Below are positions 23,024-43,359 of a stretch of DNA of 64,000 bases, in pieces. Made by a program: the position numbers and the translations under genes. The first letter of the stretch is position 1; each line of letters begins with the position of its first letter. Source of the stretch: Limimaricola pyoseonensis (GTDB taxonomy: Bacteria > Pseudomonadota > Alphaproteobacteria > Rhodobacterales > Rhodobacteraceae); NCBI RefSeq assembly GCF_900102015.1, contig NZ_FNAT01000002.1, positions 62,001-126,000 on the forward strand, written 5' to 3'. The notes under the pieces are model-generated. The model made no database searches, had not been told where the DNA came from, and was given only the letters and a program-made list of their open reading frames with translations.

Positions 23024-23686
23024 TCAGCCCTTCAGCAGCCGCAGCCCCTGCGTCACGTCGGTGCGCACCGCCAGCCGCAGCCCCGGCTCGTCGCCCGCTT
23101 TCAGCGCGGCAAGGATCAGCTTGTGGTGATAGGGCGGCTCGGTCCGCCGCAGGCGGCCGTAGAGCGCCCGCATGGTCGGCCCGAGCTGCAGCCAGACCGT
23201 TTCGGTCATCGCCAGCATCGCCGGGGCTTGGGCGCGCAGGTAGAGCGTGCGGTGGAACTCGAGGTTCATCCGGATGTAGCCGGTCGCGTCCTGCCGGGCG
23301 ACCATCTGGCTGACGCCCTGGTTGATCGTCTCCAGCCGGTCGATCAGCGCGAAATGCGCGCGCGGCAGGGCGCGCGAGGCCAGCTCCGGCTCCAGCAGCG
23401 CCCGCAGGCTGGCCAGCTCCTCGATCCGGTCGTTGGTCAGAAGCGGCGTCGTCACTCGGCCCGAGGAGGACAGCTGCAGCGCCCCTTCGGCGACCAGCCG
23501 TCGCACCGCCTCGCGCGCGGGCGTCATCGAGACGTCGAACTGCTTGCCAATGCCACGCAGCGTCAGCGCCTCGCCCGGCGCGATTTCGCCATGCAGGATG
23601 CGGGTCCGCAGCACCCGGTAGACCCGGTCATGCGCGGCGCCGGCCGGGTCGGGCGCGCGCGGCACGGGCACGGCCGAGGGGATCAT
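23024..23686 (-). CDS. GntR family transcriptional regulator (FCD/FadR type)
   Basis: 220 aa from ATG 23686, overlapping the stop of the metallopeptidase gene (ATGA). The winged helix is at ~15-80 (VYRVLRTRILHGEIAPGEALTLRGIGKQFDVSMTPAREAVRRLVAEGAL). The all-helical FCD effector domain follows, with metal-binding-type histidines (NLEFHRTLY, PPYHHKLI). The effector is unknown. Coupling to a metallopeptidase is unusual and no metabolic target is adjacent. Confidence 0.93.
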   Translation of the reverse strand: MIPSAVPVPRAPDPAGAAHDRVYRVLRTRILHGEIAPGEALTLRGIGKQFDVSMTPAREAVRRLVAEGALQLSSSGRVTTPLLTNDRIEELASLRALLEPELASRALPRAHFALIDRLETINQGVSQMVARQDATGYIRMNLEFHRTLYLRAQAPAMLAMTETVWLQLGPTMRALYGRLRRTEPPYHHKLILAALKAGDEPGLRLAVRTDVTQGLRLLKG

Positions 23687-29270: not shown

Positions 29271-32228
29271 TCAGTTTCCTTCGATGCTCAGCGCTTCGTT
29301 GACCAGCGCTTCCTGTTGGGCCTTGTGCTGGCTGGCGAGACCGGTCGCGGGCGAGGCGCTCGCGTGGCGGCCGACATAGCGCGGCCGCTTGTGGTCGGCC
29401 TCGATCCGGCTCAGCACCCATTCGATGTTGGGCTCGATGAAGCTCCAGGCGCCCTGGTTCTTGGGCTCTTCCTGGCACCACACCATCTCGGCCTGCTTGA
29501 AGCGGTCGAGCTCCTTGACCAGCGACAGCGCCGGGAAGGGATAGAACTGCTCGATCCGCATCAGGTAGACGTCGTCCAGCCCGCGCGCGTCACGCTCCTC
29601 GAGCAGGTCGTAATAGACCTTGCCCGAGCACATCACCACGCGCTTGATCTCGGCGTCGGGCTTGAGCTGGGTGTCGCTGTGGCCCTTCTCGGCGTCGTCC
29701 CACAGCACGCGGTGGAAGGACGAGCCGGTGGTGAAGTCCTCGGCGTCCGAGACCGCCATCTTGTGGCGCAGCAGCGATTTCGGCGTCATCAGCACCAGCG
29801 GCTTGCGGAAGTCGCGGTGCAGCTGCCGGCGCAGGATGTGGAAGTAGTTCGCCGGGGTCGAGCAGTTGGCGACGATCCAGTTGTCCTGGCCGCACATCTG
29901 CAGGAACCGCTCGAGCCGGGCCGAGGAGTGTTCGGGACCCTGGCCCTCGTAGCCATGCGGCAGCAGCATCACGAGGCCCGACATGCGCAGCCACTTCGAT
30001 TCCCCCGAGGAGATGAACTGGTCGAACATGATCTGCGCGCCGTTGGCGAAGTCGCCGAACTGCGCCTCCCACATCACCAGCGCGTTGGGCTCGGCGAGGC
30101 TGTAGCCGTATTCGAAACCCAGCACCGCGTATTCCGAGAGCATCGAGTCGATGACCTCGTAGCGCGCCTGCCCCTCGCGGATCGCGTTGAGCGGGTAGTA
30201 GCGCTCCTCGGTCTCCTGGTTGATGAAGGCCGAATGGCGCTGCGAGAAGGTGCCGCGGGTGCTGTCCTGGCCCGAGAGCCGCACCGGGTAGCCCTCGGTC
30301 AGCAGCGAGCCGAAGGCCAGCGCCTCGGCGGTGGCCCAGTCGAAGCCCTCGCCGCTCTCGAACATCTGGCTCTTGGCCTCGAGCAGCCGCTTGACCGTGC
30401 GGTGCAGCGGGAAGCCGTCGGGCGCGCGGGTGATGGCGCGGCCGATCTCGGCCATGGTCTTCTCGTCGATCGCGGTCTGGCCGCGCTCGTAGCTCTCGCC
30501 GTCGCGCCGGTCGAGATGGCTCCAGCGGCCGTCGAGCCAGTCGGCCTTGTTCGGGCGGTAGCTCTTGCCGGCCTCGAACTCGTCGCCCAGCATCGCCTGG
30601 AACTGGGTCTTCATGTCCTCGATCTCGCCCTCGGGGATCAGCCCGTCCTTGACCAGCCGCTCGGTGTAGAGCGTGAGCGTGGTCTTCTGGCTCTTGATCT
30701 TCTTGTACATCACCGGGTTGGTGAACATGGGCTCGTCGCCCTCGTTGTGACCGAAGCGGCGGTAGCAGAAGATGTCGATCACCACGTCTTTGTGGAACTT
30801 CTGCCGGAACTCGGTCGCCACCTTGGCGGCATGCACCACCGCCTCCGGGTCGTCGCCGTTGACGTGGAAGATCGGCGCCTCGACCATCAGCGCGATGTCG
30901 GTCGGGTAGGGCGAGGAGCGCGAGAAGTGCGGCGCGGTGGTGAAGCCGATCTGGTTGTTCACCACGATATGCATGGTGCCGCCGGTGCGATGCCCGGTCA
31001 GGCCCGACAGGCCGAAGCACTCGGCCACGACGCCCTGGCCCGCGAAGGCCGCGTCGCCATGCAGCAGGATCGGGATGACCTGCGTGCGGTCGGCATCGCC
31101 GAGCTGGCTCTGCTTGGCGCGGGCCTTGCCGATCACCACCGGGTTCACCGCCTCGAGGTGGGAGGGGTTGGCGGTCAGCGACAGGTGCACCTTGTTGCCG
31201 TCGAACTCGCGGTCCGAGGAGGCGCCGAGATGGTATTTCACGTCGCCCGAGCCGTCCACTTCCTCGGGCTTGAAGCTGCCGCCCTGGAACTCGTGGAAGA
31301 TCGCGCGGTAGGGCTTCTGCATGACGTTGGCGAGCACCGAGAGGCGGCCGCGATGCGGCATGCCGATCACGATGTCCTTCACGCCGAGCTGGCCGCCGCG
31401 CTTGATGATCTGCTCCATCGCCGGGATCAGCGCCTCGCCGCCGTCGAGGCCGAAGCGCTTGGTGCCCATGTACTTGACGTGCAGGTACTTCTCGAAGCCC
31501 TCGGCCTCGACCAGCTTGTTGAGGATGGCGCGGCGGCCTTCCTCGGTGAACTTCACCTCCTTGCCGTAGCCCTCGATCCGCTCCTTGAGCCAGGCCGACT
31601 GCTCGGGGTCGGAGATGTGCATGTACTGCAGCGCGAAGGTGCCGCAATAGGTGCGCTTCACCAGCGCCAGGATCTCGCGCAGCGAGGCGATCTCGAGGCC
31701 GAGCACGTTGTCGATGAAGATCGGCCGGTCCATGTCGGCCTCGGTGAAGCCGTAGGATTTCGGGTCGAGCTCGGGATGCGGGGTCTGCTCGCGCAGACCG
31801 AGCGGGTCGAGATCGGCGACCAGGTGGCCGCGGATGCGGTAGGCGCGGATCAGCATCAAGGCGCGGATCGAATCCAGCACCGCGGCGCGCAGCTGCGCCT
31901 CCGACAGGCCGGCGCCGGCGGCCTCGGCCTTCTTGGCGATCTTGTCGCGCGCGCCCTTGGCCTCGGCCGGCCACTGCCCGTCGAGCGCGGCGGTCAGCTC
32001 GTCGCCCGGCACGGGCGGCCAGTCGCTGCGCGCCCAGCTCGGGCCGCTGGCCTCGGCGCGGGCGTCCGAGCCGCTGTCGCCGAGGCTCTGGAAGAACTCC
32101 TGCCAGGCCGCGTCGACGCTCGACGGGTTGTCGGCGTAGCGGGCGTGCAGCTGCTCGATGTAATCGGCATTGGCGCCCTGCAGAAAGCTGGAGGCGTGGA
32201 ACACGTCGTTGGGGCTGTGCTCGGTCAT
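29271..32228 (-). CDS. sucA: 2-oxoglutarate dehydrogenase E1
   Basis: 985 aa, full length. The N-terminal E2-binding segment is present ([18 protein letters not shown], ~14-31), as are the E1o signatures [48 protein letters not shown] (thiamin diphosphate/Mg region) and [24 protein letters not shown]. It decarboxylates 2-oxoglutarate and reductively succinylates the lipoyl arm of SucB. A hairpin separates it from sucD, so it may also have its own level of expression. Confidence 0.98.
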
Positions 32229-32336: not shown

Positions 32337-33218
<882 letters not shown>

Positions 33219-33223
33219 GTGTC

Positions 33224-34417
33224 TTACCCCTTCACCGCTTTGACGATCTTCTCGGCGGCGTCGGACAGGTTGTCCGCCGCGATCACGTCAAGGCCGCTGT
33301 TGTTGATGATCTCCTTGCCCTGGTCGACATTCGTGCCTTCCAGGCGCACGACCAGCGGCACCTTCAGGCCGACTTCCTTGACCGCGGCGATCACGCCCTC
33401 GGCGATCACGTCGCAGCGCATGATGCCGCCGAAGATGTTGACGAGGATGCCTTTGACGTTCTCGTCGGAGGTGATGATCTTGAAGGCCTCGGTGACCTTC
33501 TCCTTGGTCGCGCCGCCGCCCACGTCGAGGAAGTTGGCCGGCTCGGCGCCCTTGAGCTTGATGATGTCCATCGTCGCCATGGCGAGGCCCGCGCCGTTCA
33601 CCATGCAGCCGATCTCGCCGTCGAGCGCGATGTAGTTCAGGTCGTACTTGGAGGCCTGCAGCTCCTTGGCGTCCTCCTCGGTCTCGTCGCGCAGCGCCGC
33701 GATGTCGGCGTGGCGGTAGATCGCGTTGCCGTCGAAGCCCATCTTGGCGTCGAGGCACTTCAGCTCGCCCTTGTCGGTGATGATCAGCGGGTTGATCTCG
33801 AGCATCTCCATGTCCTTGTCCATGAAGAGCCGGTAGAGAGTGTCCATCAGCTTGACGCACTGCTTGACCTGCTGGCCCTCGAGGCCGAGCGAGAAGGCGA
33901 TGCGGCGGCCGTGGAAGGGCTGGTAGCCGGTGGCCGGGTCGACGCTGAAGGAGAGGATCTTCTCAGGCGTCTTCTCGGCGACCTCCTCGATGTCCATGCC
34001 GCCCTCGGTCGAGCAGACGAAGGAGACGCGGCTGGTCGAGCGGTCCACCAGCAGCGCGAGGTAGAGCTCGCGCTCGATGTCCGAGCCGTCCTCGATGTAG
34101 ATGCGGTTGACCTGCTTGCCGGCCGGGCCGGTCTGGTGGGTCACCAGCGTGCGGCCGAGCATGCGGCGCGCCTCCTCGGCGGCCTCCTCGACCGACTTGG
34201 CCAGACGCACGCCGCCCTTCTCGCCGGCGTCGGATTCCTTGAAGTGACCCTTGCCGCGGCCGCCGGCGTGGATCTGCGCCTTGACCACCCAGAGCGGGCC
34301 GTCGAGCTCGCTGGCGGCGGTCTTGGCCTCCTCGGCGCGCATCACCGGGCGGCCGTCGGAGACGGGGGCGCCGTAGGAGCGCAGAAGGGCCTTCGCCTGA
34401 TATTCGTGAATGTTCAT
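33224..34417 (-). CDS. sucC: Succinyl-CoA synthetase beta subunit
   Basis: 397 aa with an ATP-grasp fold ([40 protein letters not shown]) and the C-terminal ligase domain containing [17 protein letters not shown]. First gene of the suc cluster. Its upstream region (34418-34703) carries a composite palindromic element shared with sdhC, described separately, and the mdh terminator. Confidence 0.98.
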
Positions 34418-34513
34418 GGACCGGTCCTCGGTTGCCGTGATTTGGCCCCTTCAAACACAGTCGCGGCGCCCGCAGAACAGCTTTTCTGGGTCGGTAGGCG
34501 AAAACCCGACATA

Positions 34514-34544
34514 TGTGATCACAGTTTTCGGGGCTGTGATCACG
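34514..34544. promoter_or_regulatory. Paired TGTGATCAC palindromes upstream of sucC
   Basis: TGTGATCACA at 34514-34523 and TGTGATCACG at 34535-34544 lie 21 bp apart centre to centre (two helical turns). The distance to the sucC start is 97-127 bases. The same pair, same spacing and same order relative to transcription, is upstream of sdhC. Confidence 0.7.
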
Positions 34545-39444: not shown

Positions 39445-39458
39445 TGCTAGCGCAAACA
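39445..39458. promoter_or_regulatory. GCGC-centred LacI-type palindrome upstream of sdhC
   Basis: TGCTAGCGCAAACA matches 12 of 14 positions of TGTTAGCGCTAACA (recalled as the CceR-type consensus). It abuts the first TGTGATCACA palindrome on its promoter-distal side. Confidence 0.5.
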
Positions 39459-39459
39459 G

Positions 39460-39490
39460 TGTGATCACACGCCCCGCGGCTGTGATCACG
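39460..39490. promoter_or_regulatory. Paired TGTGATCAC palindromes upstream of sdhC
   Basis: TGTGATCACA at 39460-39469 and TGTGATCACG at 39481-39490, 21 bp apart centre to centre, 143-173 bases before sdhC. The spacer CGCCCCGCGGC resembles the one upstream of sucC (GCCCCGAAAAC read towards sucC). The remaining ~240 bases of this intergenic region hold nothing else that I can name. Confidence 0.7.
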
Positions 39491-39632
39491 AGGCGCGAAA
39501 TCCCGCCAACTGCGGCGATTTTTCACCGGCTTTCGCCTTGCCGGCGGGTGACAGCCCGCCGAAAATCGCTAGGGATAGGCCAGCCGGAGCGCGCCCGCGA
39601 GGCCGCCCAACCGCCACTGTAAGGACGACGCC

Positions 39633-40016
39633 ATGGCCGACGTGAACCGGGGCAACCGCCCGCTCTCGCCACATCTCTCGATCTATCGCTGGCACATCCC
39701 GATGCTGACCTCGATCCTGACACGGATCACCGGCAACGCGCTGATCGTCACCGCGATCATGGTGGTGTGGTGGTTCGCGGCCGCGGCCGCCGGGCCCGAG
39801 AACTTCGCCGTGGCGGACGGCTTCATCCGCAGCTGGTTCGGCGACCTGGTGCTGTTCTTCTCGGTGCTGGGCCTGTGGTACCACACGCTGGCCGGGATCC
39901 GGCACCTGATCTGGGACGAGGGCAAGATGCTCGAGCTCGACAAGGCCGAGCTGCTCGGACAGATCATCCTGATCGTCTCGGTGCTGCTCACCATCTTCAC
40001 CGTCGTCGTTCTCTGA
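39633..40016 (+). CDS. sdhC: Succinate dehydrogenase cytochrome b556 subunit
   Basis: 127 aa, three membrane segments. Family motifs are [26 protein letters not shown] (quinone-site region) and the haem-ligand histidine in [15 protein letters not shown]. With SdhD it anchors SdhAB in the inner membrane and passes electrons to ubiquinone. It is the first gene of the sdh operon, 280 bases after DUF1737, with a composite regulatory element in that gap. Confidence 0.96.
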
Positions 40017-40027
40017 AAGGGGCAGTC

Positions 40028-40399
40028 ATGGCTTACCTGACCGACCGCAAGCGCGCGCACGGCCTCGGCGCCTCGCATTCCGGCACGAAAGCGCATTGGC
40101 GCATGTCGCTCTCCTCGGTGGCGCTGGTGCTTCTGGTGCCGCTCTTCGTCTTCACCTTCGGCGCGATCCTCGGGTCGAGCTACGAGGAAGTCGTCATCTA
40201 CTACCAGCGCCCGCTTCCGGCGGTGATCGCGCTGCTCACCTTCCTCGTCGGCTTCTGGCACTTCCGCGCCGGCGCCAAGATCATGATCGAGGACTATTCG
40301 CGCGGCCTCTCGCGCAAGGCGCTGCTGGCCGGGCTGACCTGCCTGTCCTACGGCCTCGCCGCGATCGGCGCCTTCGCCGTGATCCGCCTCGCCCTCTGA
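40028..40399 (+). CDS. sdhD: Succinate dehydrogenase hydrophobic anchor subunit
   Basis: 123 aa from ATG 40028, three membrane segments. It has the typical soluble N-terminus ([21 protein letters not shown]) and the [15 protein letters not shown] segment, where the histidine and Asp-Tyr contribute to haem and quinone binding. It starts 11 bases after sdhC and is followed 14 bases later by sdhA. Confidence 0.95.
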
Positions 40400-40413
40400 C
40401 CCGGAGCCCCGTA

Positions 40414-42219
40414 ATGGCAGCCTACGAATACGAAACGCACGAATACGACGTGGTGGTGGTCGGCGCCGGCGGCGCGGGCCTGCGCGCCACGCTCGGCATG
40501 GCCGAGCAGGGCCTGCGCACCGCCTGCATCTCCAAGGTCTTCCCGACCCGCTCGCACACCGTCGCGGCGCAAGGCGGCATCGCCGCCAGCTTGGGCAACA
40601 TGGGCCCCGACAGCTGGCAGTGGCACATGTACGACACGGTGAAGGGCTCCGACTGGCTCGGCGACACCGACGCCATGGAATACCTCGCCCGCGAGGCCCC
40701 CAAGGCGGTCTACGAGCTCGAGCATTACGGCGTGCCCTTCTCGCGCACCGAGGAAGGCAAAATCTATCAGCGCCCCTTCGGCGGTCACACGACCGAATAC
40801 GGTGAAGGCCCGCCGGTGCAGCGCACCTGCGCCGCCGCCGACCGCACCGGCCACGCAATCCTGCACACGCTCTACGGCCAGTCGCTGAAGCAGAAGGCCG
40901 AGTTCTACATCGAGTACTTCGCCATCGACCTCTTGATGGACGATGACGGCACCTGCCGCGGCGTGCTGGCGTGGAAGCTCGACGACGGCACCATGCATGT
41001 CTTCGCCGCCAAGATGGTGGTGCTGGCAACCGGCGGCTACGGCCGCGCCTATTTCTCCGCCACCTCGGCGCACACCTGCACCGGCGATGGCGGCGGCATG
41101 GTGGCGCGCGCGGGCCTGCCGCTGCAGGACATGGAGTTCGTGCAGTTCCACCCGACCGGCATCTACGGCGCCGGCTGCCTGATCACCGAGGGCGCGCGCG
41201 GTGAGGGCGGCTACCTCACCAACTCCGAGGGCGAGCGCTTCATGGAGCGCTACGCACCCACCTACAAGGACCTCGCCTCGCGCGACGTGGTCTCGCGCTG
41301 CATGACCATGGAGATCCGCGAGGGCCGGGGCGTCGGCAAGGATGGCGACCACATCCACCTGCACCTCAACCACCTGCCGCCCGAGACCCTGGCCGAGCGT
41401 CTGCCCGGCATCTCGGAATCGGCGCGCATCTTCGCCGGCGTCGACGTCACCAAGGAGCCGATCCCGGTGCTGCCGACGGTGCACTACAACATGGGCGGCA
41501 TCCCCACGAACTACTGGGGCGAGGTGCTGAACCCGACCAAGGACAGCCCCGACGCCGTGGCCCCGGGCCTGATGGCTGTGGGCGAGGCGGGCTGCGCGAG
41601 CGTCCACGGCGCCAACCGGCTCGGCTCCAACTCGCTGATCGACCTCGTGGTGTTCGGCCGCGCCGCGGCGATCCGCGCGCGCCAGGTCGTCGACCCCGAG
41701 ACGGCAGTGAAGGCGCCGGCGCAGGCGGCGATCGACAAGGCCTTCGACCGCTTCGACGGTCTGCGCCATGCCTCGGGCTCCGTCGCCACCGCCGAGCTGC
41801 GGCTCGAGATGCAGAAGACCATGCAGCAAGACGCCGCCGTCTTCCGCACCGACAAGACGCTGGCCGAGGGCATGCAGAAGATGGAGGGCGTGGCGTCCAA
41901 GATGGACGACATCCGCGTCACCGACCGCAGCCTGGTGTGGAACTCCGACCTGATGGAGACGCTGGAGCTCGCCAACCTGATGCCCAACGCGCTGGCCACC
42001 ATCACCGCCGCCGAGGCGCGCAAGGAAAGCCGCGGCGCGCATGCGCATGAGGACCACCCCGACCGCAACGACGAGGAATGGCGCAAGCACTCCCTCGCCT
42101 GGGTCGAGGGCGCGAAGGCCCGGCTCGACTACCGGCCGGTGCATCTCGACCCGCTGACCAAGGCGGAGGAGGGCGGCATCGACCTCAAGAAGATCGCGCC
42201 GAAGGCGCGGGTCTACTGA
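40414..42219 (+). CDS. sdhA: Succinate dehydrogenase flavoprotein subunit
   Basis: 601 aa from ATG 40414. FAD-binding GAGGAG (17-22), covalent-flavin histidine in [12 protein letters not shown] (His48), the substrate-site segment [11 protein letters not shown], and MGGIPTNY. It oxidises succinate to fumarate. Its stop overlaps the start of a small lipoprotein gene (TGATG) inserted between sdhA and sdhB. Confidence 0.98.
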
Positions 42220-42579: not shown

Positions 42580-43359
42580 ATGGTCCAGCTCAAGCTTCCG
42601 AAGAACAGCCGCATCACCCACGGCAAGACCTGGCCCAAGCCGGAGGGTGCCAAGAACGTCCGCAAGGTGCAGGTCTACCGCTGGAACCCCGATGACGGGA
42701 AGAACCCGCGGGTCGACACCTATTTCGTCGACATGGACAGCTGCGGCCCGATGGTCCTGGACGCGCTGATCAAGATCAAGAACGAGATCGACCCGACGCT
42801 GACCTTCCGCCGCTCCTGCCGGGAAGGCATCTGCGGCTCCTGCGCGATGAACATCGACGGGCGCAACACGCTGGCCTGCACCTACGGGCTCGACGAGATC
42901 CAGGGCGACATCAAGATCTACCCGCTGCCGCACATGCCGGTGGTCAAGGACCTGATCCCCGACCTCACCCATTTCTACGCGCAGCACGCCTCGATCCGGC
43001 CCTGGCTCGAGACCGAGACCAACACGCCGGCCAAGGAATGGCGCCAGTCGATCGAGGACCGCAAGAAGCTCGACGGTCTCTACGAGTGCATCATGTGCGC
43101 GTCCTGCTCGACCGCCTGCCCGTCCTACTGGTGGAACGGCGACCGCTATCTCGGGCCGGCCGCGCTCTTGCACGCCTATCGCTGGATCGTCGACAGCCGC
43201 GACGAGGCCACGGGCGAGCGGCTCGACGATCTCGAGGACGAGTTCAAGCTCTACCGCTGCCACACCATCATGAACTGCGCCAAGACCTGCCCGAAGGGTC
43301 TGAACCCGGCGAAGGCGATCGCCTCGATCAAGCACATGATGGTCGAGCGGGCCGTATGA
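42580..43359 (+). CDS. sdhB: Succinate dehydrogenase iron-sulfur subunit
   Basis: 259 aa. [2Fe-2S] cluster cysteines are Cys80, Cys85, Cys88 and Cys100 ([10 protein letters not shown]...C). The [4Fe-4S]/[3Fe-4S] ligands are in [12 protein letters not shown] (170-180) and [12 protein letters not shown] (227-237). It carries electrons from the SdhA flavin to quinone. A good AAGGAG site precedes the start. Its stop overlaps the start of a DUF1989 gene (ATGA). Confidence 0.98.

Follow-up and report, generated by a model that had tools for sequence, protein, structure and literature searches.

Tandem palindromes before the sdhC and sucC operons of Limimaricola pyoseonensis and its relatives, predicted operators of the GntR-family regulator AkgR

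The AkgR system of Rhodobacter sphaeroides, reportedly the subject of a 2015 paper by Imam et al. in mBio, is the closest described counterpart of the regulatory arrangement analyzed here; throughout, we take RSP_0981 of this bacterium to be AkgR and RSP_1663 to be CceR. According to one study (PMC4344238), the predicted targets of the GntR protein RSP_0981 in R. sphaeroides are succinyl-CoA synthetase, succinate dehydrogenase and 2-oxoglutarate dehydrogenase, and the LacI family protein RSP_1663 is predicted to act on succinate dehydrogenase, among other targets, via the motif [A/G/T]GTT N6-8 AAC[A/C/T]. Another paper (PMC6365646) places GTGATCAC among the AkgR binding sites of R. sphaeroides and calls AkgR a transcriptional activator. 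It also proposes that a Pseudomonas GntR regulator of the PS417_07240 type (deoxyribonate catabolism), 32% identical to AkgR, uses GTGATCAC as well; this regulator resembles the one discussed below in being GntR-like and in its palindrome but differs in having one site, 40–47 bp before its own gene, and in serving another pathway (PMC6365646). No paired layout, 21-bp spacing or distance to a promoter appears for AkgR in the accessible parts of PMC4344238 and PMC6365646, and the strings “tandem” and “palindrom” have 0 occurrences in the former. Nor was a description of a strict paired layout with promoter distances found in the open-licence literature, a scope outside which the primary AkgR paper falls. 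The AkgR regulon is already known; the strict paired layout is a new detail. Among the solved GntR/FCD structures, the closest by sequence to the candidate regulator described below is that of Escherichia coli McbR (E = 1e-18), a protein with different genes and biology.

In the window (the whole stretch of 64,000 nucleotides of L. pyoseonensis DNA that was analyzed), two palindromes lie upstream of sdhC: a distal operator, TGTGATCACA, at 39460–39469 (centre 39464.5), and a proximal one, TGTGATCACG, at 39481–39490 (centre 39485.5), neither assigned to a strand. The centre-to-centre distance is 21 bp, as the initial annotation of this DNA had it. A pair-pattern scan of the sequence located the same layout upstream of sucC, on the minus strand, with the proximal operator, TGTGATCACA, at 34514–34523 and, as read from sucC, the distal one at 34535–34544 (likewise without strand). 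That annotation had noticed the arrangement elsewhere in the window only before sucC; for the pair, this is correct and extends to the complete genome, in which the pattern TGTGATCACN{8,16}NGTGATCAC produces two matches in 3,911,774 bases, the sdhC and sucC pairs. This genome has 120 occurrences of GTGATCAC by itself and 12 strand matches of TGTGATCAC, which represent 9 distinct places. It contains three pairs of GTGATCAC with 0–30 bases between the copies, namely those before sdhC and sucC and one spaced 15 bp on another contig (C5); the chance expectation from the GTGATCAC density is about 0.004 pairs for any single spacing, for example 21 bp. The random scatter of pairs over the genome, named in advance as the outcome that would speak against the element, was not observed: two of the three close pairs precede TCA operons. 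A CRP/FNR-type site was also considered; the consensus of this type consists of the half-sites TGTGA and TCACA, 6 bp apart, and the reading was rejected because TGTGATCACA has no 6-bp spacer between TGTGA and TCACA.

The genes behind the two pairs are assigned by their domains. The sdhC gene for the succinate dehydrogenase cytochrome b subunit (39633–40016, plus strand; PF01127, E = 7e-27) is followed downstream by the sdhA frame (40096–42219; FAD_binding_2 and Succ_DH_flav_C) and sdhB (42580–43359; Fer2_3 and Fer4). On the minus strand, sucC, which encodes succinyl-CoA ligase beta (33224–34417; PF08442 and PF00549), is followed by sucD (32337–33218; PF02629) and then sucA (29271–32228; PF16870 and others).

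Conservation of the pairs was traced through genomes of the same family and beyond. The pair pattern GTGATCACN{0,30}GTGATCAC is present in 133 of 149 evenly drawn family genomes (the window's own counted), and among the 30 loci listed by the family search, 27 lie before sucC or sdhC, all with a spacing of 20–21 bp; the other three, spaced 18, 27 and 31 bp, are not located before these genes. Alignments were made of 42 distinct sucC promoters (39 with a spacing of 21 bp and 3 with 20 bp) and of 34 distinct sdhC promoters (32 and 2, respectively), the distal sdhC operator of the window being aligned with the latter. The promoters were selected for carrying a 20–21 bp pair, hence the invariant operator core in these alignments; the operator flanks are conserved as well (tTTGTGATCACA...TGTGATCACAAA at sucC), and much more strongly so than the spacer separating the two sites. 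This comparison of the regions upstream of sdhC and sucC in relatives, which had been proposed as a check, shows the element kept before both genes across the family. In genome G136, where the fetched stretch contains no sucC, sucA is preceded, at about 166 bp, by a 21-bp pair (locus L103). Among 380 alphaproteobacterial genomes from outside the family, pairs spaced 13–28 bp were detected in 17, and two of these (G295 and G350) have a spacing of 20–21 bp; family members included in the alphaproteobacterial draw carry pairs in 5 of 5 cases. The pairs are a real, conserved regulatory element.

A candidate for the protein that binds them is encoded in the same window, at 23024–23686 on the minus strand. 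This 220-aa protein combines a GntR winged helix-turn-helix domain (PF00392, 51.7 bits against a cut-off of 27) with an FCD ligand domain (PF07729, 67.2 bits against a cut-off of 24.3), which makes it a member of the FadR/FCD subfamily; its nearest named relatives are Limimaricola proteins. It was chosen as the candidate AkgR on these domains, on its co-occurrence with the pair and on the presence of TGTGATCACA before its orthologues. The window's genome yields 25 GntR-family matches, 22 of them over the cut-off. For five small pair-carrying genomes, the 23024–23686 protein is the candidate common to all (four orthologues were read, and the fifth, in G030, comes from the family-wide search), and none of the other GntR genes of the window's genome has a clear match in all four genomes read. 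One of the small genomes with a sucC pair, G090, has three GntR matches, among which only the AkgR candidate is clearly orthologous to a GntR gene of the window's genome.

A link to the described system comes from genome G051, identified as Cereibacter (Rhodobacter) sphaeroides by 4 kb of a plasmid contig that match records of strain 2.4.1 at 99.9%. This genome carries both the sucC and the sdhC pair and encodes, just beyond sdhB, an orthologue 76% identical to the window regulator, a position that presumably corresponds to that of RSP_0981 near RSP_0974-6. L. pyoseonensis thus has GTGATCAC palindromes before its suc and sdh operons along with a likely GntR-family orthologue of RSP_0981, and the likeness to AkgR of R. 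sphaeroides includes the motif, the protein family and the suc, sdh and 2-oxoglutarate dehydrogenase targets. The initial annotation had left the choice between AkgR and an unnamed factor. The former is supported by the reported GTGATCAC motif, the predictions for RSP_0981, the orthologue in the window and the self-sites of relatives described below, and, given this evidence, an unnamed factor is not needed. The pairs can be predicted, by sequence comparison, to be very probably tandem operators of AkgR. As alternatives, the remaining GntR genes of this genome were considered and rejected: among the 25 frames, an exact GTGATCAC at most 400 bp upstream of the first possible start was found only at L045, where the site falls within the final codons of an adjacent OmpA-family frame.

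Among the 149 family genomes, the orthologue and the pair are found together in 130, the pair only in 3, the regulator only in 3, and neither in 13 (Fisher p = 1.8e-13, uncorrected for kinship). Orthologues were called at E ≤ 1e-55, with a maximum of 20 candidates scored for each genome; of the 16 genomes classed as regulator-less, six (G004, G014, G048, G083, G101 and G114) reached this maximum. The genomes with a pair and no detected orthologue, G019, G096 and G114, are rated 91, 77 and 100% complete, respectively. As for those with the regulator only, G040 has a sucC pair with a single mismatch, G147 just a distant sucC paralogue, and G122 no sucC in the assembly. A true sucC is readable in 12 of the 13 genomes with neither, and 0 of these 12 have a sucC pair with at most two mismatches at 20–22 bp (G017 has a sucC-upstream pair with three mismatches). 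Genomes of this kind, which have sucC but lack both the sucC pair and a detected regulator (G004, G008, G014, G017, G029, G048, G054, G059, G083, G101, G102 and G109), represent either natural losses or ancestral absence of the AkgR system, and would reveal the control of suc and sdh in its absence.

Part of this co-occurrence reflects kinship. On the same sets and at the same threshold, the candidate regulator was detected in 27 of 27 pair genomes and 0 of 13 with neither, and a control GntR of the same genome in 26 of 27 and 4 of 13; the control, too, tracks the pair genomes, so kinship explains some of the association. A SucC tree of 55 rows, itself poorly supported, requires four changes of the pair label, one of them forced by strong branches, and seven of the regulator label; an independent-pairs test on this tree did not reach significance, there being too few events. 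Because kinship accounts for part of the co-occurrence, the assignment of the regulator rests more on the sites before its own gene. An exact TGTGATCACA starts 9–63 bp before the matched start in 58 of 80 named orthologues; these 80 are the nearest of 480 relatives and come from Limimaricola, Yoonia, Ruegeria, Rubellimicrobium and others, with several species per genus. From the frequency of TGTGATCACA elsewhere in the same loci, with the pairs left out, 0.05 such sites are expected. Another set of orthologues has TGTGATCACA 12–49 bp before the gene in 8 of 34 cases. The self-site is absent before the regulator gene of the window, the ATG of which overlaps the end of the preceding reading frame, and before the genes of four Limimaricola relatives.

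Examination of the stretches between the pair and the gene, using a motif search with no constraint on position, revealed a conserved element downstream of the pair in both operons, with motif likelihoods two- to threefold higher, in log units, than those for shuffled sequences. The sdhC element (39547–39575, plus strand; motif CGTGACA.ggccgaaAAAa.CG.TAa.A) includes the −35-like GTGACA at 39548–39553 and the −10-like TAGGGA at 39570–39575. Measured from the proximal site centre, it starts at 60–63 bp in 27 of the 34 promoters (at 61 bp in the window) and at 50–51 bp in three, two of which are low-scoring. CGTGACA with at most one mismatch is present in 28 of the 34 sdhC promoters compared with 16% of shuffles; these simple matches are located at 60–63 bp in 25 cases, at 51 bp in two and at 7 bp in one, and for L021, with CGTGACA at 51 bp, the motif search puts the element elsewhere. 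The sucC element (34466–34493, minus strand; motif t.c.gcaAAAAa.CGTTTa), which we read as containing the −35 region, lies at 34–37 bp in 27 of 42 promoters and at 24–25 bp in 6 of 42 (one low-scoring), the window being among the latter with 25 bp from the proximal site centre. At sucC, a first scan with a sigma-70-like matrix produced scattered matches, none of the 42 promoters fitted a fixed promoter pattern, and exact TTTAA (8 of 42) was not enriched over shuffles. We read the conserved elements as promoters at set distances from the pair, with a minor class approximately one helical turn nearer. When the distances outside the main class were examined for 10.5-bp phasing, the mean resultant was 0.33 and 0.48, with a direction cosine of 0.31 in both cases; the test is a weak one, so helical phasing is suggestive only. 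Given TAGGGA at 39570–39575, sdhC transcription is predicted to start near 39582, which would put the operators near −97 and −117, positions that would suit an activator more than a blocker.

Directly upstream of the sdhC pair lies TGCTAGCGCAAACA (39445–39458, plus strand), which had been described as a GCGC-centred 14-bp palindrome and as a LacI-type site forming part of the arrangement. The palindrome is indeed there, although it is imperfect, with 5 of 7 base pairs matching; the LacI-type site does abut the sdhC pair, but it lacks a sucC counterpart of equal quality and its position in relatives is not fixed. Relative to the 14-bp LacI-type consensus TGTTAGCGCTAACA, which is our own, there are two mismatches at sdhC versus at best four at sucC in the window. 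Matches to TGTTAGCGCTAACA with at most three mismatches were detected in 8 of 34 sdhC and 2 of 42 sucC promoters versus 0.6–0.7% of shuffles. Four of the eight sdhC matches abut the pair, those of the window and C. sphaeroides included, and four lie elsewhere; a LacI-type near-palindrome likewise abuts the pair in C. sphaeroides and in L039. Because the matches are limited to 8 of 34 sdhC promoters, with half of them away from the pair, the LacI-type site was rejected as a general, fixed second part of the element. The element at sdhC is a plausible candidate for a CceR-type site and would agree with the published prediction of succinate dehydrogenase control by the LacI family protein RSP_1663, although the published motif is missed by one base in one half (the minus strand reads TGTT-N6-AGCA).

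The explanation that we consider highly likely as a whole is that the pairs are tandem operators at which two AkgR dimers activate sdh and suc, with single-site control of the regulator's own gene. Each TGTGATCACA palindrome would bind one AkgR dimer (GntR family, winged helix-turn-helix plus FCD), and the two dimers would sit side by side, presumably in a cooperative manner, two helical turns apart; the layout suggests that they share one face of the DNA, and a regulator bound as two dimers had also been proposed in the initial annotation. At sdhC, they would be bound about 97 and 117 bp ahead of the estimated transcription start, and at sucC in a related position, from which they could help RNA polymerase at the downstream promoter; activation by two dimers from such positions is suggested by the locked distance between the pair and the promoter-like element. 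The sdh and suc operons might thereby be tuned to the supply of a TCA intermediate, the putative effector. In most of the relatives read, the regulator gene has one TGTGATCACA shortly ahead of its start, which would mediate self-control, probably repression. The layout, conservation, co-occurrence, self-sites and distance lock come from the present analysis, whereas the AkgR motif and the activator role are taken from the literature. This reading names a likely regulator for two central TCA operons, encoded by a gene of the same window; it also proposes a family-wide operator grammar of two sites, 20–21 bp apart, at a set distance to the promoter, and makes the pair a simple marker for AkgR regulons and their losses. 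In a bolder version, to which we give somewhat less than an even chance, AkgR would be an obligate dimer pair that forms, throughout the family, a two-turn activator platform in fixed promoter phase at about −97/−117, the single site conferring negative self-control; if so, the sign of regulation would be set by position and copy number, not by sequence.

Three other interpretations have to be weighed against activation by AkgR. The main binder could be a different GntR/FCD paralogue that recognizes the same motif, as might be suspected from the three genomes that keep the pair without a detected orthologue, from the paralogues of approximately 37–45% identity that are common in the family listing, and from the GntR/FCD proteins, 30–31% identical, that are encoded close to the 21- and 22-bp pairs of a different family. 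However, the TGTGATCACA self-sites were found before orthologues of the AkgR candidate itself, among the closest 80 of the 480 relatives, and in G090 that candidate alone has clear orthology to a GntR gene of the window's genome, so a paralogue as the main binder appears decidedly unlikely. Alternatively, the pair could be a repressor operator at which AkgR or a relative holds sdh and suc low until an effector is present. Many GntR/FCD proteins are repressors, and the single self-sites near the gene start resemble repressor sites; nevertheless, the sdhC promoter-like element lies, in most promoters, 60–63 bp past the proximal site, a distance too great for simple blocking, and AkgR is described as an activator. 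The sucC element is nearer (24–37 bp), so blocking is less well excluded at sucC; overall, we regard repression through the pair as unlikely. Finally, palindromes can form hairpins, and the pairs might be a structural or chance feature, such as a hairpin or a repeat, without any regulator. This seems extremely improbable in view of the fixed sites, with a far less conserved spacer between them, the fixed gene context, the near restriction of the pairs to genomes that keep one regulator, and the occurrence of the same palindrome before that regulator.

Several GTGATCAC pairs were observed in other genomic contexts. The third close pair of the window's genome, with 15 bp between the copies, is located at C5:3141-3163 (L305:3141-3163) on a 65-kb contig, next to a gene whose HTH_13 match narrowly exceeds the cut-off; on the other side are genes that, by eye, are dTDP-sugar-like. 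Two pairs are spaced 31 bp: one, in G042 (L307:4213-4251), lies past the 3′ end of an ABC ATPase-like gene, and the other, in G136 (L310:3843-3881), is flanked by an amidase-like gene and a TauE/SafE transporter gene (PF01925) and might be a further target, with its copies three turns apart. In two genomes of another alphaproteobacterial family (f15), pairs of 22 and 21 bp (L308:4309-4338 and L309:992-1020, respectively) adjoin frames that, by eye, are TonB-receptor-like, and GntR/FCD genes, the products of which are 30–31% identical to the candidate AkgR, are located beyond the receptor gene or next to the pair; given this proximity, tandem GTGATCAC may be a habit of this branch of GntR proteins.
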